Made by a program: the position numbers and the translations under genes. The notes under the pieces are model-generated. The model did not search any database, was not told the origin of the DNA, and saw only the letters and a list, made by a program, of their open reading frames with translations. Positions 5,993-35,702 of a stretch of DNA of 64,000 nt are shown here, piece by piece (within the stretch, counting starts at the first letter, position 1; every line of letters starts with the position of its first letter). Location of the stretch: NCBI GenBank assembly GCA_947259395.1, contig CAMYMN010000012.1, forward strand, positions 1 to 64,000, in the 5' to 3' direction. The DNA comes from an uncultured Gammaproteobacteria bacterium (GTDB lineage: Bacteria; Pseudomonadota; Gammaproteobacteria; Arenicellales; JAANXG01).

Positions 5993-6656
5993 GGAGCACG
6001 TAGCCGGCGCCGCGAACCGTATGCAGCAAGGGTTGCGGAAATTCTTTATCGATCTTGCTTCTCAACCGGCTGATATGTACATCGATGACGTTTGTCTGGG
6101 GATCAAAATGATATTCCCAAACCTTTTCCAACAGCATGGTGCGGGTTACTACTTGTCCACTGTGGCGCATCAAAAACTCGAGCAGACGAAATTCTCGCGG
6201 TTGCAGGTCAATAATCTTGTCACCGCGTTTTACCTGACGCGACAATAGATCCATTTCCAAATCCGCGACTTGTAGTTTCGTGGTCGGTGCTTCGACATCG
6301 GTGCGCCTTACCAATGCCTCCAGGCGCGCCAACAACTCTGAAAACGCGAACGGCTTTACCAGATAATCGTCACCACCGGCCTTGAGGCCCTGCACCCGGT
6401 CATCGACCTCCCCCAGCGCGCTGAGTATCAATGCCGGCGTATGGTTGTCTGCGAAACGTAACGATTTGATGATGGACAGGCCGTCTAATTCCGGCAGCAT
6501 CCTGTCGACAACGAGTACATCATAGGATTCAGTACTCGCCAGGTGTAACCCTGCCTTGCCATCCGCGGCGTGATCTGCCACATGCCCCTGCTCTTTGAGG
6601 CCTTTGACAACATATGAGGCGGTATCGTGGTCGTCTTCGATTACTAGCACCCGCAT
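5982..6656 (-). CDS. OmpR/PhoB-type response regulator
   Basis: MRVLVIEDDHDTASYVVKGL... receiver plus winged-helix (DVHISRLRSKI...VRGAGYVL). Start set at the internal ATG at 6656 inside ORF 5982..6773. Confidence 0.93.
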   Translation of the reverse strand: MRVLVIEDDHDTASYVVKGLKEQGHVADHAADGKAGLHLASTESYDVLVVDRMLPELDGLSIIKSLRFADNHTPALILSALGEVDDRVQGLKAGGDDYLVKPFAFSELLARLEALVRRTDVEAPTTKLQVADLEMDLLSRQVKRGDKIIDLQPREFRLLEFLMRHSGQVVTRTMLLEKVWEYHFDPQTNVIDVHISRLRSKIDKEFPQPLLHTVRGAGYVLRAS

Positions 6657-6722
6657 AGTTCTATGTTCAGTGGTTGCAGCGCGTTCGTCAATGCCGTGTG
6701 GTGATCTTCCGGATAAGGAATC

Positions 6723-6750
6723 CCCGGGGCCGTCGCCCGCCGGCCCCGGG
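6723..6750 (-). terminator. GC-rich hairpin between the htrA-like gene and the response regulator gene (terminator/attenuator-like)
   Basis: CCCGGGGCC (6723-6731) pairs with GGCCCCGGG (6742-6750), 10-nt loop. No obvious U-tract, so read-through or processing is possible. Confidence 0.4.
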
Positions 6751-6793
6751 TTTACTCGCAGTTGACCTTGCATTTATGCGAATCTCACGGCAT

Positions 6794-8320
6794 TTATGCG
6801 AATCTCACTGCCACGAATCGATCACTACCGCGCCGCTCGATCAATATCAACACTGATGACTGGTCCGCTTTTACGGCTCGCTCGACGGCATTCACCACAT
6901 CACTCGGCGCGTTTACGGTCTCACCACCGATCATCTTAATGACATCACCCGGAGAAAATCCCTTACGCGCGGCCGGGCTGCCAGGCGTCACTTCGGTCAC
7001 CAGCACCCCTTCGGTGTCGTTTGGAACGCGAAATTGACGCCGCGTCTCCGCAGTCAGCGGTGCCAACGTTAAACCGAGTTTTGGCCGATCGGCACCACCA
7101 AGTGCGTTCCCGGCATCCGCTACCGTCTCCTCCTCATCCGGGCTCGCGCCGACCGTCACCCGAAGCGTCCGCAAATCACCTGCGCGCCATATTTCTAACT
7201 CGACGTTTCGATCGGCAGCCACGCTCGCCACCAACTTAGGCAACTCCCGCATGCGCCCGATTGCTTGGCCATCGAACTTACGGATCACATCACCCGTCTG
7301 TACGCCCGCTTGGTGCGCGGGGCTGCCATCGACCACACTGGCTACCAGAGCGCCGTTTTGGTCGTCGAGACCCAGGGTGTCCGCGATGTCCTCGGTTACC
7401 GTCTGGATCTGAACACCCAGCCATCCGCGGTTCACGCGGCCGGTGGCGATGAGTTGCTCGATGACAGGTTTTGCCATGTTGGCCGGAATCGCGAATCCGA
7501 TGCCCACGTTACCGCCGTTTGGCGAAAAAATGGCGGTATTCACTCCCACCACAGTACCATCGACCGCAAACAATGGCCCGCCCGAGTTCCCTTGGTTAAT
7601 CGGCGCATCGATTTGCAGGAAATCGTCCAACGGGCCGGAACGAATGTCGCGACCGCGCGCGGAAATGATGCCGGTGGTGGCGGTGCCGCCCAAACCGAAC
7701 GGGTTACCGATAGCAACCACCCAATCGCCGACACGCGCACGTCCCGAGTCACCGAACACCACGTAGGGCAGCGGTTCGTCTGCAGTGATTTTCAGCAAAG
7801 CCAGATCGGTCTTCGCGTCATATCCCTTGAGCTCGGCCGGATAGCGCTTGCCGCCGTTGGTGACGACGGTGATCTCGGACGCACCCTTAATGACGTGATG
7901 ATTCGTCACCACATATCCATCGGGATCGATAACAAACCCGGATCCCACCGCGTGGATTCGCTCGTTGGGCTTCGAAAAGCGATCCGGTGTATCGAAGTGA
8001 CGATCGAAAAACTCCTGAAACGGAGAATTGGGTGGAAACCGGAAATGAGGACCACGTTCAGACTGCTGAGCAGGCGGCGCACCAGCGGTTGAAACATTCA
8101 CCACTGCGGGTTTCACTGCCTCCACCACGTCAGCAAAGCTAGCGGGCTTGTCAATTATGCTCGTGGCCGGTATCAAGGTGTGGGCGGGGGCGGACTTCGC
8201 CGCCGCCGGGGAAACGGGTTGAACAAGCAACGCGACGGTCAGGGCAGTGCCTACTGCACTGGCGATGAGCCATCGCCGATTTGAAAATTGTTTCAACATT
8301 TGATTCTGCATCTTTCGCAC
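6794..8320 (-). CDS. HtrA/DegP-family periplasmic serine protease (Do-like) with two PDZ domains
   Basis: Signal peptide; catalytic motifs VTNHHVIKGA, KTDLALLKI, QGNSGGPLFAVDG; two PDZ regions (GWLGVQIQTV..., PKLGLTLAPL...). Confidence 0.95.
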   Translation of the reverse strand: MRKMQNQMLKQFSNRRWLIASAVGTALTVALLVQPVSPAAAKSAPAHTLIPATSIIDKPASFADVVEAVKPAVVNVSTAGAPPAQQSERGPHFRFPPNSPFQEFFDRHFDTPDRFSKPNERIHAVGSGFVIDPDGYVVTNHHVIKGASEITVVTNGGKRYPAELKGYDAKTDLALLKITADEPLPYVVFGDSGRARVGDWVVAIGNPFGLGGTATTGIISARGRDIRSGPLDDFLQIDAPINQGNSGGPLFAVDGTVVGVNTAIFSPNGGNVGIGFAIPANMAKPVIEQLIATGRVNRGWLGVQIQTVTEDIADTLGLDDQNGALVASVVDGSPAHQAGVQTGDVIRKFDGQAIGRMRELPKLVASVAADRNVELEIWRAGDLRTLRVTVGASPDEEETVADAGNALGGADRPKLGLTLAPLTAETRRQFRVPNDTEGVLVTEVTPGSPAARKGFSPGDVIKMIGGETVNAPSDVVNAVERAVKADQSSVLILIERRGSDRFVAVRFA

Positions 8321-8569
8321 ACTCCATAGTCTACGGATTCAAGGAATGGGGCCAGGCATATCGCCTAAACTGGATGGCTGAAATTGTAGGGATCCGGAGC
8401 TTACGAATCAGTTTCGTAAAAATTAAATTTAAGTAACCTGTGGCCGTGGATTCCTTTGATCATTCTCCCTGCACGACCGCGGAAAGCGCACAAATCCTGT
8501 AAAATAGGCGCATCCAATCATGCTCAGCACTAATGAAAAGGTTGAGCGGCATGTAGATACCTAGACACT

Positions 8570-9370
8570 GTGCCCACCATTCGCATCAACGATATTGATC
8601 TTTATTACGATCGTAGTGGCGACGGCGAGCCATTGTTGTTTCTTCACGGCCTCGGCTCAAGTAGCCGCGATTGGGAGTTCCAAAAGACTTATTTCACGAG
8701 CCGCTACCAAGTTATCACTATTGATACCCGTGGTCACGGCCGGTCCGGAAAACCACCTGGTCCGTATACCATAGATCTATTTGCGCGCGACATCGTGGAA
8801 CTTCACAAGGAGCTGGAACTCGGGCCAGTGCATGTGGTGGGTTTGTCGATGGGTGGGATGATTGCTTTCCAGCTTGTCATAGATCAACCCTCCCTGGTTC
8901 ATTCCGTAACTATCGTCAACAGCGGGCCAGCGTTGATTCTTAACACGCTAAGACTAAAGCTGAGCTTTAAGAAACGAGAATGGATTGTCCGATTATTTGG
9001 CATGCGTAAGATGGGCAAAGTGCTGGCAAACTCGCTATTACCAGAACCACATCAACAGGAGTTACACAGATTATTCATCGATCGTTGGGCGGAGAACAAT
9101 CGAAAGGCCTACCTTACATCGCTGCGCGCACTGATTGGCTGGAGCGTTGCTGATCGTATCCACGATATTCGGTGCCCAACGCTGATCGTGAGTGCCGACC
9201 AGGACTACACGCCGGTGGTCTACAAACAGGCTTATGCAGCCAAAATTCCTGGTGCTGAAGTCGCTGTCATCAGACACTCGCGGCACATGTCCCCCATCGA
9301 TCAGCCTGACGCGTTCAATCGTACTCTAGACGAGTTTCTAGCCAGATATCCGGTAGCGCGTCAACCGTAG
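8570..9370 (+). CDS. Alpha/beta-fold hydrolase
   Basis: 266 aa (GTG start), HGLGSSSRDWEFQ, nucleophile elbow GLSMGGM, terminal catalytic His (RHSRHMSPIDQP). Confidence 0.9.
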   Translation: MPTIRINDIDLYYDRSGDGEPLLFLHGLGSSSRDWEFQKTYFTSRYQVITIDTRGHGRSGKPPGPYTIDLFARDIVELHKELELGPVHVVGLSMGGMIAFQLVIDQPSLVHSVTIVNSGPALILNTLRLKLSFKKREWIVRLFGMRKMGKVLANSLLPEPHQQELHRLFIDRWAENNRKAYLTSLRALIGWSVADRIHDIRCPTLIVSADQDYTPVVYKQAYAAKIPGAEVAVIRHSRHMSPIDQPDAFNRTLDEFLARYPVARQP

Positions 9371-10005
9371 CCGTTAATCATTCTAATTTTGCCGTCTTGG
9401 GTCTTGCGGTAGAATCGTCTCAATTCTTGAAACATCTCCGGGTGTTGGCGAACATAGCGCTGCTCTAGCCACCAACAGTACTTGGCGGCATATTGATTAG
9501 CGTGTCGGTATCGTTCCAGTTGCTCACTGTTCAAACTACTGTCGAAGCTAATCCTTTCAAACAACCATTGATGTAAACCATCCGGCATATGACAGTTCTG
9601 TTCACGCAATAAACTTGACAATCCAACATATTTATCTACTTCTGCTTGTAACTCGAGTTCCATCAGCGTCACGCTGCGCTTATAACCAGCATTCCACGTC
9701 AGATATAAGAAATGACTCACGCCCTCAACGGCGATGCAATACTCGGACAGGTTATCGTCACTGAGACTAGTAAGCGGATTCTCTCGTGCGAGAGGTTTCA
9801 GCACATCCTGATCGACGTAAAGAGAAAGGTGAAGGTCCGTATCACTCTCATGCACAAGTAATTTTTCGCCAACCGCTCGTGGGTTGAGACTGGTATCCAG
9901 AGCGTGGGCCACGACGGCATCAGTAATCAAAAAATCATCAACATTGTGATCGACAGCAATTTCGTAAATTGCTTGCAGTTGTTTTTGCAACACGTGCAAC
10001 TGCAT
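9361..10005 (-). CDS. Conserved-looking hypothetical protein (214 aa)
   Basis: Full-length ORF with soluble composition. Convergent with, and overlapping by 10 nt, the hydrolase. No family recognised. Confidence 0.6.
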   Translation of the reverse strand: MQLHVLQKQLQAIYEIAVDHNVDDFLITDAVVAHALDTSLNPRAVGEKLLVHESDTDLHLSLYVDQDVLKPLARENPLTSLSDDNLSEYCIAVEGVSHFLYLTWNAGYKRSVTLMELELQAEVDKYVGLSSLLREQNCHMPDGLHQWLFERISFDSSLNSEQLERYRHANQYAAKYCWWLEQRYVRQHPEMFQELRRFYRKTQDGKIRMINGYG

Positions 10006-10017
10006 GACAATAATCGG

Positions 10018-10668
10018 CTAGTGCCGTGACCAACCTTCTGGTTTGTCAAATATATGAATGCCGCATCGCCGCAGTAGCCGCGCAGCCCGCTTGCTGCCGG
10101 TGCGCGTCCAGATATCATACCAATGAATCACGTCGGCATCGTCAGTGATACGCGCGTTATCGCCGACCTCCTCAAGGGCTTCGACAAACCCGGAAAAATT
10201 CTCGGAAAGTTCCTCAAATACCGCGCCGCCGTTGTCCGGTGCGTTCGAGGACCGTATGGCCTCAGATAAGCAGCCGTAAGCGGTGCCTCCCATTGAGACA
10301 TAGTAGTCTACGTTTACGACCTTCCGTTTCAAGCTATCCGCAAACAACCCTGCGATAAACAGCGCGACGTCACCGAGCCGACGTAAAGCATGTTGGCGGT
10401 GTTTTGCAGTTTTTGCCTCGACGGCTTCTCCGAATATCAGCGCCAAAGGTTTCAGTGTGTAATCATCGCGCGTCCATTCGTATAGATGGTCGGTTCGCGT
10501 AAAGCCGGCGAGCATGTTAACGACGTATGCCACAGTGTCTTCACGTGCATGAAGACATTGATTAGCCATCGCAGACACCAGGGATTCGTGAAAGAATGTC
10601 TTTACGTCACTGGTTGCGATCAGTCGCACATTTTTCGGTGGTATCACCACAACCGCCGTTACCCCCAA
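10018..10668 (-). CDS. Hypothetical protein (216 aa)
   Basis: ORF 12 nt upstream of, and co-directional with, the 9361..10005 ORF. Protein-like composition; no family recognised. Confidence 0.6.
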   Translation of the reverse strand: MGVTAVVVIPPKNVRLIATSDVKTFFHESLVSAMANQCLHAREDTVAYVVNMLAGFTRTDHLYEWTRDDYTLKPLALIFGEAVEAKTAKHRQHALRRLGDVALFIAGLFADSLKRKVVNVDYYVSMGGTAYGCLSEAIRSSNAPDNGGAVFEELSENFSGFVEALEEVGDNARITDDADVIHWYDIWTRTGSKRAARLLRRCGIHIFDKPEGWSRH

Positions 10669-11301
10669 AATCTTTCGTACCGGTCAGTAGCAACTCAAAG
10701 GATACCAAACTTACACACTCCTCAACTTGAATTATAGTCGCTGGCCAGATAAGCGAAAGTTAGCACTCGCGTAGCTTTGCTGCTAACAACATCGTTAATG
10801 CGTTGCGGCCACTGATATCATGCGTTGCATCAAAACAATAGCTCCTGGATTCGGCGCAAAGAATCGCCGCTTCGATCTTTTTGACCGGTTAATAATCGCT
10901 TCATTTCGAGCAATTCCGCGCTCGTGCCTTTAACTCCACCCATCACTGGATCTCGCAGTATCAAGATAACCAGGGCGAGTCCAAACTCTTCGATGAGACG
11001 GTACGTCACCATAAATGTCTGCATCGCGGTCCGCCGATGCAGACAGACTGTAAAAGCTCGTTGTCAATCATCGCCTGAAGGGTAACGTTGAACCGAGCTG
11101 TGACTACTACCGAAAGAGCGGATCCAACCTCGGTACTGCGGTACACCAACCACCGACAATAGACTGCACTGTCCGCGACGGATGTCAATCGTGCGATCAG
11201 CCGCGGGCAGATGCCCTAAATTTTGCCGCGCAATCATGCTGTTTGTGGCATTATTACGCACCGTGAAAACGCCTCGCTTTTAAGCCCAACAAGAAGGAAA
11301 T

Positions 11302-22051: not shown

Positions 22052-23722
22052 TCAAGCGGCGCCTTTATGCTGAATATCGGCGTTGAGTTCCGTATTTTGC
22101 CCGGTAAGTTTTTGAACGATGTCAAAATCGACCCAGTCAAGGTGATTAGTCGCGAGCCTGATCTTGGTCGGCTGAATAAGCAAGGATTCATCGGCGCTTT
22201 CCATCACGAAATGATGTCTGACTTTAGATACGTCCTTCGGTACTATCAGGCTGCATTTGATCTTTTTGTCTTCCGGTATTTTTATCAATACTGCGAGTTT
22301 TGGCGATTGATCCGTATTGTTGCTTGACCGTGTGAGCACATCCTGAATCGACACCGCTTCCGCGACGGGCCCAAATTTATATACACCAATTGTAATTTTG
22401 TTGGCTTGATCATGGCGCATCCACCGCACCACGCCTACGTCCCAGGCATCATCTTTTTTCGTCGGACGACGCACCGCAATTAACTTACCAATGAGATTGG
22501 CTACCGGTGCAGTGCTTTCTTTTGTTAATTGCACACCATTTGCGCTTTCGTCAACGCAGCTCCATTCACCCAGATCAGTCGGGCCCGAGTTTGCGCGAAG
22601 TTTCTGTTTTCTAAATACAACGTTTTGTATGTCGTTACCTGTACGTCCACTGCAACGGAGTTCCGATTGTCCATTCAAGAAGTAGGTCACACCATCAAAA
22701 CCATGGATCATTAGTCGTTTGTCGTTGATCGCTAAACGCATACTTTTACGTTTTAGCTGTCCTCCCCAAGATGTGATGAGACGATCTAATAATTGAAGGC
22801 GATCACGATCCTCAACCTTGGTGTTTTGACGGCCATGTTCCCTGAGCCGCAGGTCGAGACTTTGAAATTGATCGTACAACGCGATGACTAGTTGTGTCGT
22901 ATCAAGCACCAAATATTGCTCCGGATCTTCGATCTGATCTTTCGCCTGCATCGCATGAGCCGGCTTGTCATCATACAAATTGACGAGGAACTGGCACTTG
23001 CCCGACGGTACAAAAGGCGGAGCCACTAATACGGCATGTACGGCCAATTGATTACAGCGATCATGAATCTCATCGATCTCTCCGTGCGCGAACTTGTATG
23101 GATCGAGAGCCGCGGTCAGAAGGATCTGTTTATAAACATGGGTTATTGTGGTTTGCGGTTTGAATGCGTTGAACTGGTCCGTGACCGGAAACTTCAACAA
23201 ATTATCTTTCTGCGCTTTCTTAACTAGTTCATGTATCGCCAGCCATACACCCTTGGGAATCGGATGATAAATGCGATATGCGTCGCAACACACTTCACTA
23301 AAATACAGAATTGCGCGATGTATCGCCATCGCATGACTGGGCTTATCATATCGGTTTCCCGTTAACACAAATGACACCGCTGCCCACGCGTAACCCATAG
23401 CGAGCAAGTTGTGTATCTTCGAAAGCAATGATATTTCCGTGCGTGAAGATTCGGAGAGCGGAAGTTGTGAACCGGTCCGCCGATCGGTGAGGCGGTAGCT
23501 GATTGTTGACAACGCTTCGCGGAAAGCTTCTAACACCTCGAGACGCCGCCGTGCCGGCATGTCTACGGTGTTCATAGTCGACAACATCGACTTTATTTCC
23601 GCGGCCGCTCGTGGAGCATCCGACGCCGGCAGATTTTCTAACCAGGCCTTTGCATCGGAACGCGAGATCGGAACAATGTGCTCACCAGGTAGACGAGCGT
23701 GATCTTGTGTGTGATTAGACAA
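22052..23722 (-). CDS. Hypothetical 556-aa protein, possibly PilZ-like C-terminal region
   Basis: Long intact ORF. The WSCVDESANGVQL segment resembles the (D/N)xSxxG PilZ signature, but no clean RxxxR was located. Confidence 0.6.
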   Translation of the reverse strand: MSNHTQDHARLPGEHIVPISRSDAKAWLENLPASDAPRAAAEIKSMLSTMNTVDMPARRRLEVLEAFREALSTISYRLTDRRTGSQLPLSESSRTEISLLSKIHNLLAMGYAWAAVSFVLTGNRYDKPSHAMAIHRAILYFSEVCCDAYRIYHPIPKGVWLAIHELVKKAQKDNLLKFPVTDQFNAFKPQTTITHVYKQILLTAALDPYKFAHGEIDEIHDRCNQLAVHAVLVAPPFVPSGKCQFLVNLYDDKPAHAMQAKDQIEDPEQYLVLDTTQLVIALYDQFQSLDLRLREHGRQNTKVEDRDRLQLLDRLITSWGGQLKRKSMRLAINDKRLMIHGFDGVTYFLNGQSELRCSGRTGNDIQNVVFRKQKLRANSGPTDLGEWSCVDESANGVQLTKESTAPVANLIGKLIAVRRPTKKDDAWDVGVVRWMRHDQANKITIGVYKFGPVAEAVSIQDVLTRSSNNTDQSPKLAVLIKIPEDKKIKCSLIVPKDVSKVRHHFVMESADESLLIQPTKIRLATNHLDWVDFDIVQKLTGQNTELNADIQHKGAA

Positions 23723-32414: not shown

Positions 32415-35400
32415 ATGACTACGAAAAAGATCGCCACCGCGGACATCGAGATCGGTATGTATGTATCACGACTGGATCGACCGTGGCGCGAGACCCCATT
32501 TCTGTCGCAGGGATTCTTTGTCAGGAATACCGACGAGATCAAGAAGCTCAAAGAAAGCTCTCGCTTTGCCTATGTGATGATTCCGGACGAGGAATACTCG
32601 CTGCAAAGCGCTCACGACCAGCCAATTTCGCTGGCCACGATCAACAATCTTTTTACCGCCTCCAACCTCAAATCACCCGCGTCGCAGACCTCTTTCAAAA
32701 ATGAGTTGCCGAGCGCTGAGAAGGCGCATGCAGCTATCGAGAACATGACGATGGAGGTTTGGAGCGATTTGAAGAATGGAAGAAAGCTGAAGATCAACGA
32801 CATCAGCGATCGTGTACGCATGATGGTCGACAGCATCGAGCGCAATCCAGATGCCTATACCTGGCTTTGCTGCGTCAAGGATCATCCCTCATTAGAGTTT
32901 CGACATGCCGTCAATGTTTCCGCATTGTTGACCATCTTTGGCAGACAGCTGGGGCTTGAGCACGAAGACCTACAGTTGCTTGCGATCGGTGGGCTCTGTC
33001 TTGACGTGGGGAATTTCAAGCTCCCCAAAGACTTATTAAAGAAGAAGACCCGTCTGACGGATGACGAATGGGAGGTGATGAAAACCCATGTCCGGCACAG
33101 TATGCAGCTCATCAAGCAATTCACAGATGCAGACACAAAGATGCAATGGATGGTCGCGACTCATCATGAGCGCTACGACGGCAGTGGTTATCTGGCCGGA
33201 GTATCGGGTGACCATATTCCCTTGTTCGGGCAGATGGCGGGAATCGTCGACACTTACGTTGCTTCCACCGAGCCCAAACCCTACGCCACCGCAATGACCT
33301 CGGATGACTCCATCGAGACGTTGTTCAGGCAACGCGGCCACCATTTCAAATCGTCGCTGGTTGATCATTTCATCCAGGCGATCGGACTCCATCCAACGGG
33401 GTCACTAGTGGAGATGAGTTCCGGGGAAATTGCCGTGGTCGTTGCTCAGAATATGCACAAAAAACTGCGCCCGCGTATCGCACTTGTTCTAGACGCCCTC
33501 AAAAAGCCTTATCGGGATTATCCGTTGATCAATCTTGCCACGCAGGCGCATTCAAGAGATGGCAAATCCCTGAGCATCGTCAAAGGTCTGCGGGCGGGGC
33601 AATATTCGATCTCGTTGGAGGATATTCTCGGTCCTCTGACGAGCCACGTAGACGAAGAAGATTTTAAGACTGATGTAGATTTTGCGGCGCAATTCGAACA
33701 ACAAGCAGTAGAAGTCGACGTTACCAGTAAAAAATCCCGTCAACCACGCACCGGGAAAACGGACCCAGCTCAATCCAATCAATCCACGACGATCGCAAAA
33801 CCCACGACTACCCCAAAACCCACGACGATCGCAAAACCCACAACTACCCCAAAACCCACGACGATCGCAAAACCCACGACTACCGCAACGTCAAGCAAGG
33901 TCGTGCGATTCATTCGTGCGGCCGCGGCAATTGCGACTGTTGTGATCGGCGGTGCTTTCATCGTGTACCAACAAAGCCAGCTCGAACAGTTGGCAAAGCA
34001 GCTGGAAGCGTCACGCCAACTAGCAGCGGAAAAAACTGAGGAAGTTCGGCTCATTGCGGATGCGGAGGCAAAGCGAAAGGCCATCATTGAAGTCAAAGAG
34101 GAGCAGGCTCAGCTACTGGCTGCAACAGAAGCAAGACGCAAGGCGGTGGAAGCTGAACTTAAGGCGGCCGTAAAGGCAAAGCGCCAAGCGGCACTGGAAG
34201 CCGAACTTCAGGCGGCGGCACAGGCAAAACGCCAAGCGGCACTGGAAGCCGAACTTCAGGCGGCGGCACAGGCAAAACGCCAAGCGGCATTGGAAGCCAA
34301 ACGTCAGGCGGCGGCACAGGCAAAGCGCCAAGCGGCACTGGAAACCGAACGTCAGGCCGCGGCACAGGCAAAGCGCCAAGTGGTATTGGAGGCCGAGCTT
34401 CAGGCGGCGGCACAGGCAAAACGCCAAGCAGCACTGGAAGCCGAGCTTCAGGCCGCGGTACGGGAAAAGCGCCAAGCGGCATTGGAAGCCGAAGATCAGG
34501 CGGCGGCACAGGCAACGCGCCAATCAGCGCTCGAAACAGAATATACCGGGACACGATACGCGAGGCTTCAAACGGAGTTGGAAGCTGAAAGTAAGATCGC
34601 TGCAGAAATAAAGCGTCAAGCGGAGCTCGAAACTGAAAGCGCGGACGCTACATACAAGACGCCGCAAACGGACCTGGAAGCTGAACATAAGGCGGCTGCA
34701 GAGGTAGAGCGTCACGTGGCGCCGGAAGCTGATTTGACGATAACTGCTGAGGCAAAACGTCAAGAGGAGCTGGAAGCTGAACGCAAGGCGACGACCGAGG
34801 CAAAGCGTCAACAGGAGCTGGGAGCAACGAAACCAGGCAAAGTATTCCGGGACAGGCTCGAGGATGGGAGCGAAGGGCCGGAAATGGTAGTCGTTCCTGC
34901 GGGCTCATTTCGTATGGGACGCCTCCAGGGACGAGGCGACAACGACGAAAAACCTGTGCGCACAGTCACGTTGGCCAAACCGTTTTCGATCGGTCGCTAC
35001 GAGGTCACATTCAATGAGTATGATCAATTTGCGCGCGCGTCGGGGCGCACGCTACCGGACGACAAGGGCTGGGGTCGGGGCCGAAACCCGGTGATCAATG
35101 TTTCTTGGAAAGATGCGATCGCTTATACACATTGGTTATCGGAGCAGACGGGCCAGAGTTACCGGCTGCCTACCGAAACGGAATGGGAATACGCGGCGCG
35201 TGCCGGCAGCGAGAACAAGTACGCTTGGGGAAACGACATCGAAAACAACCGGGCGAATTGTGATGGGTGTCGCAGCCGTTGGGACGGCAAGCAGACGGCA
35301 CCAGTGGGCTCGTTTCAACCAAACCGGTTTTCCCTATATGACACTGTGGGCAATGTCTGGGAGTGGGTGGAGGATTGTTGGCGCCCAAACTACAACGGTA

Positions 35401-35579
35401 TGCCCACCAATACTTCGGCACGGCTACATGTTGACGGTAGTAACTGCGGCCGTCGCATGCGCCGCGGCGGTTCCTGGAACGACGAGCCGATTTACGTCCG
35501 AGTGGCGAACCGGGGAAGGGGCACTCCCGAATACCGGAATGTCAACCTTGGTTTTCGTCTGGCGCGGGACGTCGAATAA
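32415..35579 (+). CDS. Degenerate HD-GYP (DUF3391-type N-terminus) - TM - repetitive coiled coil - SUMF1/formylglycine-generating-enzyme-like domain protein
   Basis: Start at the internal ATG 32415. N-terminus IEIGMYVSRLDRPWRETPF; HD-GYP-like RHAVNVS, LDVGN, HVRHS, HHERYDGSGYL; TM VVRFIRAAAAIATVVIGGAFIVY; AQAKRQAALEAELQA repeats; C-terminal MVVVPAGSFRMG...RLPTETEWEYAARAG...VGNVWEWVED...RRGGSWND...LGFRLARD. Confidence 0.92.
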   Translation: MTTKKIATADIEIGMYVSRLDRPWRETPFLSQGFFVRNTDEIKKLKESSRFAYVMIPDEEYSLQSAHDQPISLATINNLFTASNLKSPASQTSFKNELPSAEKAHAAIENMTMEVWSDLKNGRKLKINDISDRVRMMVDSIERNPDAYTWLCCVKDHPSLEFRHAVNVSALLTIFGRQLGLEHEDLQLLAIGGLCLDVGNFKLPKDLLKKKTRLTDDEWEVMKTHVRHSMQLIKQFTDADTKMQWMVATHHERYDGSGYLAGVSGDHIPLFGQMAGIVDTYVASTEPKPYATAMTSDDSIETLFRQRGHHFKSSLVDHFIQAIGLHPTGSLVEMSSGEIAVVVAQNMHKKLRPRIALVLDALKKPYRDYPLINLATQAHSRDGKSLSIVKGLRAGQYSISLEDILGPLTSHVDEEDFKTDVDFAAQFEQQAVEVDVTSKKSRQPRTGKTDPAQSNQSTTIAKPTTTPKPTTIAKPTTTPKPTTIAKPTTTATSSKVVRFIRAAAAIATVVIGGAFIVYQQSQLEQLAKQLEASRQLAAEKTEEVRLIADAEAKRKAIIEVKEEQAQLLAATEARRKAVEAELKAAVKAKRQAALEAELQAAAQAKRQAALEAELQAAAQAKRQAALEAKRQAAAQAKRQAALETERQAAAQAKRQVVLEAELQAAAQAKRQAALEAELQAAVREKRQAALEAEDQAAAQATRQSALETEYTGTRYARLQTELEAESKIAAEIKRQAELETESADATYKTPQTDLEAEHKAAAEVERHVAPEADLTITAEAKRQEELEAERKATTEAKRQQELGATKPGKVFRDRLEDGSEGPEMVVVPAGSFRMGRLQGRGDNDEKPVRTVTLAKPFSIGRYEVTFNEYDQFARASGRTLPDDKGWGRGRNPVINVSWKDAIAYTHWLSEQTGQSYRLPTETEWEYAARAGSENKYAWGNDIENNRANCDGCRSRWDGKQTAPVGSFQPNRFSLYDTVGNVWEWVEDCWRPNYNGMPTNTSARLHVDGSNCGRRMRRGGSWNDEPIYVRVANRGRGTPEYRNVNLGFRLARDVE
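33783..33893 (+). repeat. In-frame 36-bp tandem repeat encoding (TTIAKPTTTPKP)n
   Basis: CCACGACGATCGCAAAACCCACGACTACCCCAAAA repeated about 3 times within the HD-GYP/SUMF1 ORF. Confidence 0.85.
34149..34532 (+). repeat. In-frame 48-bp tandem repeats (8 units) encoding a 16-aa Ala/Gln/Lys-rich coiled coil
   Basis: Units EAELQAAAQAKRQAAL, EAKRQAAAQAKRQAAL, ETERQAAAQAKRQVVL and so on; more diverged 16-aa units continue to about 34820. Confidence 0.88.
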
Positions 35580-35702
35580 ACAAAGCGGTTGGCGACAACC
35601 TGAGGATCCATAGCGTTACCGTTTGTCACCGACCCATCTGTTAGACTCCTCTGTTACTGACTATGCCGATCAACTATTGAATACACGGCCGATAACATTG
35701 GC

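Follow-up and report, generated by a model that had tools for sequence, protein, structure and literature searches.

A predicted single-pass membrane protein joining a degenerate HD-GYP module to an FGE-like domain, conserved in one uncultured gammaproteobacterial genus

The gene lies at positions 32415-35579 of the plus strand of the window, the whole 64,000-nucleotide stretch of DNA analysed, and encodes 1054 amino acid residues followed by a stop codon, with no internal stops. The first-pass annotation, made from the same letters, had rightly described the reading frame as intact, although its length of 1055 residues included the stop codon. The start codon call is supported by orthologues with the identical initial Met. 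According to the ORF, Pfam and the orthologues, the whole gene encodes a single-pass HD-GYP/FGE fusion. It starts with a DUF3391 domain (aa 4-129, 32424..32801; PF11871, E 6.6e-18) and a degenerate HD-GYP domain (aa 154-312, 32874..33350; HD_5, E 4.4e-26, with matches to its modelled fold), and ends with an FGE-sulfatase/PvdO-like domain that lacks the copper cysteines (aa 821-1051, 34875..35567; PF03781, E 6.5e-58, and PvdO 5hha); all three matches exceed the Pfam cut-offs. Between both ends, and on the same strand, are found a Pro/Thr linker with an 18/36-bp tandem repeat (TTIAKPTTTPKP; 33784..33888, TRF), a single predicted transmembrane (TM) helix at about aa 499-520 (33909..33974), and a helical Ala/Glu/Arg/Lys/Gln stalk at about aa 521-800 (33975..34814), whose length differs among orthologues and in which TRF detected 7.9 copies of a 48-bp (16-aa) tandem repeat (34147-34523). 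The TM helix corresponds to the only hydropathy peak of the protein, with the best 19-mer starting at residue 499 (mean 2.16). Within the HD-GYP domain, LCLDVGN spans residues 194-200 and HHERYDGSGYLAG residues 250-262, and histidines are found at 164, 225, 250 and 251; LD replaces HD at L196 D197 (33000..33005) and GYL replaces GYP at aa 258-260 (33186..33194). Pfam, hydropathy and the tandem-repeat search thus bear out the first-pass layout of a DUF3391/HD-GYP module, one TM helix, 16-aa repeats and a SUMF1 domain, and the LD, GYL and remaining His motifs are present as it stated. Directly past the stop codon begins a dispersed repeat, palindromic and about 50 bp long (GGTTGGCGACAACC...GTCACCGACC; 35585-35640), that has four relatives elsewhere in the genome (C55, C71, C5 and C66). 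No Rfam match was found within the window.

Pairwise alignment of the HD-GYP domain with PmGH places LD at H221-D222 and GYL at G284-Y285-P286. PmGH residues H189, D222, H250, H276, H277, D305 and Y285 are retained in the fusion, and the changed positions are H221 (L196), K225 (N200), P286 (L260), D308 (V282), R314 (K288) and K317 (A291), which leaves the metal-binding/catalytic trio H221, D222 and K225 incomplete (L196, D197 and N200). L196 and N200 are identical in the five fusions known and in four congeneric paralogues, and in these same proteins position 282, corresponding to D308, is V, L or Q and never Asp. GYL is present in all of them and, among the relatives inspected, is restricted to the fusions and paralogues of the genus. 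D197, H225, H250, H251, D279 and Y259 are invariant in the fusions. In PmGH, Ala at H221, K225 or D308 abolishes or strongly cuts activity, while P286A, R314A and K317A do not, and P286A kept activity (PMC4159591); the case for inactivity of the fusion is therefore based on the changes at H221, K225 and D308 and not on GYL. In V. cholerae, proteins whose HD is not intact show no activity, but strict rules have a known exception in VCA0681, which is active though D308 is missing (PMC4212101). The comparison supports a catalytically degenerate HD-GYP module, predicted to be non-catalytic. A non-catalytic domain had been proposed in the first pass from both altered motifs; L196, N200 and V282 at PmGH-essential sites sustain that proposal, but GYL is weak evidence for it.

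Loss of the HD histidine is not a distinctive mark of the fusion protein but a trait of the subfamily, since nearly all DUF3391-HD-GYP relatives inspected have Q, F, M or L at this position: mostly Q in the stand-alone relatives of the order, and F, M or L in those of the class. L053 is a relative with HD intact, and the motif of L054 is not cleanly readable. In the HD-GYP tree, the three intact-HD HD-GYP proteins of the window's genome (L001, L003 and L005) are placed outside the clade of fusions and stand-alone proteins. AlphaFold2 modelling of aa 1-420 (13 sequences, pLDDT 77, pTM 0.76, with the GYL loop below pLDDT 50) gives a structure that matches the folds of PmGH, Bd1817, DvhD and PA4781, with 4mcw at E 1e-8. 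By the Pfam match and this model, the HD-GYP fold is present. In G000:C21:20707-24566, two QD-type DUF3391-HD-GYP genes were observed on either side of a GGDEF frame (22062-22496).

The model of the C-terminal domain (27 sequences, pLDDT 91.8) has PvdO (5hha) as its best structural match, with TM-score 0.88 and 40% identity, and 5hha is also the top sequence match (E 1.9e-47). The TM-score against 2q17 is 0.77, with the FGE fold present. The domain scores 199.4 bits against NCBIfam NF051459, the family of the dihydropyoverdine dehydrogenase PvdO, below its cut-off of 500. In the motif GGSWNDEPIYV, D1023 and V1028 are located at the positions of human FGE C336 and C341, the two copper-binding cysteines, and the four orthologues have D and V as well. 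Formylglycine-generating chemistry is therefore not expected, and a functional formylglycine-generating enzyme was ruled out by the absence of both cysteines. The window's genome shows one sulfatase match only. A diversity-generating retroelement target was also considered, as the C-terminus of the domain resembles TvpA-type variable regions, and was rejected because the DNA that encodes the C-terminus has no further copy (template repeat) in the 87%-complete genome and because the C-terminal region is conserved, not hypervariable, with FGE dN/dS of 0.14-0.27 between species. Ten reverse transcriptase matches are found in G000, most of them on contigs of a few kb (C128, C132, C165 and others).

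No hydrophobic stretch precedes the HD-GYP domain and one TM helix follows it, so that the FGE domain is expected outside the cytoplasm. Most TM-bearing relatives retain the pair C988 and C1011, which is complete in 71 of 99 FGE rows; it is missing from seven kinase-FGE proteins, all of a single clade, that have no strong hydrophobic stretch and are apparently soluble. This distribution lends modest support to a disulfide, and hence to the periplasm. A periplasmic FGE domain and a cytoplasmic HD-GYP domain are thus the likely, predicted topology. The first-pass view that they lie on opposite sides of the membrane agrees with the single TM helix between them and with the cysteine pattern, but the flanking charge is almost balanced (three against two K/R in 15 residues). 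Among orthologues, the stalk measures between about 110 and 300 residues, with its boundary set by a rough pattern, and this variation disfavours a register-dependent relay through the stalk.

Relatives were sought in 60 related genomes. The genus is represented there by five other genomes, of which G001, G002, G004 and G005 carry the full architecture; the fifth, G003, which is 74% complete, shows no copy. The fusion gene therefore occurs in five or more species of a single uncultured genus of Gammaproteobacteria, and its recurrence in four other genomes indicates that it is real and excludes chance. Orthologues show 68-78% identity to the window protein in the N-terminal module and 72-82% in the FGE domain. 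By pairwise NG86 estimates, both end domains, HD-GYP and FGE, have a dN/dS of about 0.1-0.3, against 0.3-0.9 for the linker/TM region, with synonymous sites near saturation in the pairs with G001. An assembly chimera or a decaying gene was ruled out by the five genomes with the same fusion and by purifying selection on both end domains.

Outside the genus, 110 genomes of the order show no DUF3391-HD-GYP match at E <= 1e-63 in a long frame in other genera. At class level, the N-terminal module has a relative at E <= 1e-50 in 94 of 369 genomes; among the matches listed, no frame exceeds 601 aa except the window's own. Among the best 80 FGE-pattern loci from 85,462 species genomes, searched with two short patterns, both domains are in one frame only in two records of the same genus. 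The fusion was found in no other genus searched; a broader absence is not proved. No plasmid relatives of the fusion were found. In L163 (Kosmotogaceae, 6001-10669), an FGE-domain match adjoins two separate frames with HD-GYP matches. Full-text literature on HD-GYP and formylglycine, largely outside subscription journals, and a review of c-di-GMP sensory domains do not mention the fusion, in agreement with the first-pass statement that this architecture was not known as characterised.

The two halves of the protein show different relationships. The HD-GYP tree groups the fusions and, as their sister, a stand-alone clade with support of 100/99, and G009 comes next; the stand-alone locus is syntenic in four genomes, with 86-90% identity. 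None of the window's neighbouring genes recurs beside the fusion in other genomes, and only G002 and G004 have some genes in common, a few kb upstream of it. In the FGE tree, a quick tree, the fusion clade is found among TIR-TM-FGE proteins of the genus (L069), of the family (L036) and others, with SH-aLRT 87, at which value the fork stays open. Identity to the window's FGE domain is 61-62% for L069 and 56% for L036; the congener's TIR-TM-FGE protein G002:C196:2946-4397 (L069) shows 62%. The TM-juxtamembrane stretch of the fusion is similar to the one in L036 (E 1e-5 in a comparison with five sequences), and in further FGE relatives the partner is a kinase, caspase or nSTAND1 domain or several TIR domains. 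The features of effector-TM-FGE receptors, namely a signalling front, a TM helix and then a PvdO-like FGE domain, are all found in the fusion, with the topology predicted. The back half belongs to this known modular class, missed in the first pass, in which the TM helix is not constant and the fronts are TIR, kinase, caspase or STAND. As judged by the family trees, the fusion is probably a membrane receptor made by domain swap, HD-GYP for TIR: a duplicate of the genus's stand-alone degenerate HD-GYP would have replaced the TIR-type front of a TIR-TM-stalk-FGE receptor.

These data are consistent with a single-pass inner-membrane receptor composed of a degenerate DUF3391-HD-GYP, a TM helix, a length-variable stalk and an FGE-like domain of C-type-lectin fold. 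The fusion partners of its relatives suggest that the FGE domain is the sensing end. In the proposed mechanism, the least certain part of this reading, this domain would bind an extracytoplasmic ligand and alter receptor clustering, and the dead HD-GYP, instead of working as an enzyme, would serve the c-di-GMP network as a non-catalytic switch or docking surface; its partner there might be a nucleotide or a protein, for example one with a GGDEF domain. The window's genome has 37 GGDEF matches, and comparison of orthologue neighbourhoods shows no partner gene conserved beside the fusion. We consider the chances about even that the protein is a receptor with a ligand-binding FGE end and a non-catalytic switch or docking module at the HD-GYP end. 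More tentatively, it could be the first HD-GYP-based modular FGE receptor, in which periplasmic ligand capture is wired to c-di-GMP signalling through a dead HD-GYP whose lineage is kept across Gammaproteobacteria as a non-catalytic switch.

Signalling may instead run inside-out, as in DvhD/LapD, with the dead HD-GYP binding c-di-GMP and the FGE output capturing or releasing a periplasmic partner. In DvhD, an inactive HD-GYP that holds no metal and reads SQ in place of HD binds c-di-GMP and passes the signal to a domain in the periplasm (PMC13090378). The DvhD structures rank with the closest solved ones, by fold and by sequence, to the HD-GYP of the fusion, and the GGDEF matches of the genome also count toward such a receptor. 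The binding pocket, however, does not favour the c-di-GMP sensing put forward in the first pass: three of the eight canonical DvhD contacts are identical in the fusion (Y621, L577 and Y652, as Y259, L214 and Y290) and a fourth is conservative (R650 to K), as read from a pairwise phmmer alignment in which single positions may shift, and K582, Y523, M646 and E668 are changed to W, L, S and R. The PmGH guanine contacts R314 and K317 are also replaced, by K and A. Furthermore, the DvhD dimer stalk precedes the HD-GYP, whereas the TM helix of the fusion comes after it, and the 87%-complete genome shows no match to a LapG/DvhG-type protease (PF06035). The few contacts kept and the lack of a LapG-type protease match do not favour a mechanism copied from DvhD, and we regard an inside-out receptor as rather unlikely.

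An outside-in conflict (defence) sensor appears improbable; in this reading, an invader or damage to the envelope would be sensed by the FGE domain, and the HD-GYP would be a regulatory front replacing TIR. Close FGE relatives are joined to TIR, caspase, kinase and nSTAND1, and FGE domains have been proposed as antigen sensors in conflict systems (PMC10907252) and listed among their effectors (PMC7159879), but PADLOC gives no match for the fusion protein, no conflict-system genes were recognised beside it, a dead HD-GYP is no known effector, and neither a retroelement template copy nor a variable C-terminal region is found. That the N-terminal module still acts enzymatically on c-di-GMP or another nucleotide through a reduced metal site is very improbable, since the retained D197, H225, H250, H251, D279 and Y259 and the VCA0681 precedent are opposed by replacement of both the His and the Lys of HDxGK, each essential or nearly so in PmGH, by the inactive V. 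cholerae proteins and by an Arg at the H189 position in the G001 orthologue.

Under the receptor reading, the fusion would join modular FGE-like sensors with TIR, kinase, caspase or STAND fronts to c-di-GMP signalling, usually separate fields. It also points to a widespread, little-studied gammaproteobacterial set of DUF3391-HD-GYP proteins whose namesake His is missing and whose fold is under selection; domain annotation alone would label them phosphodiesterases, which is probably wrong for most of those inspected. The natural variation of stalk length from species to species offers a direct way to ask if a rigid relay is required in such receptors.

Among known proteins, V. cholerae VC2497 shows the same DUF3391 and HD-GYP pair as the front of the fusion. 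The stand-alone DUF3391-HD-GYP proteins of Gammaproteobacteria are mostly about 400-500 aa long and have no FGE domain, and the class relatives inspected keep GYP where the fusion has GYL; the stand-alone paralogue G000:C33 is 57-60% identical to the fusion front, with the same LD..GYL motifs. Bd1817 (3tm8), an inactive HD-GYP, matches the fusion model over about 335 columns, but keeps the HD pair as metal ligands, lacks the GYP Tyr and has no FGE domain (PMC4159591). At the other end, PvdO (5hha) and the formylglycine-generating enzyme have the fold of the FGE domain, with the copper cysteines of the latter missing in the fusion. The TIR-TM-(stalk)-FGE proteins L069 (same genus), L036 (same family) and L093 (Chromatiaceae) show the same TM helix and PvdO-like FGE domain, with 56-61% identity in the latter and both Cys pairs kept, but their cytoplasmic front is TIR_2 (assigned by eye in L093) instead of DUF3391-HD-GYP. 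The first pass gave no precedent for an inactive transmembrane HD-GYP; by analogy, DvhD of Desulfovibrio vulgaris (2026; PMC13090378; PDB 9rbz, 9rc0) is one for a dead HD-GYP acting as a transmembrane switch. Both are membrane proteins with a dead HD-GYP without the HD pair and a periplasmic domain, predicted in the case of the fusion. In DvhD, the periplasmic domain is a dCache, the PAS and HD-GYP domains are cytoplasmic, and the gene shares an operon with that of its protease, whereas the fusion has an N-terminal HD-GYP with DUF3391, an FGE-like part on a long stalk and most c-di-GMP contacts different.
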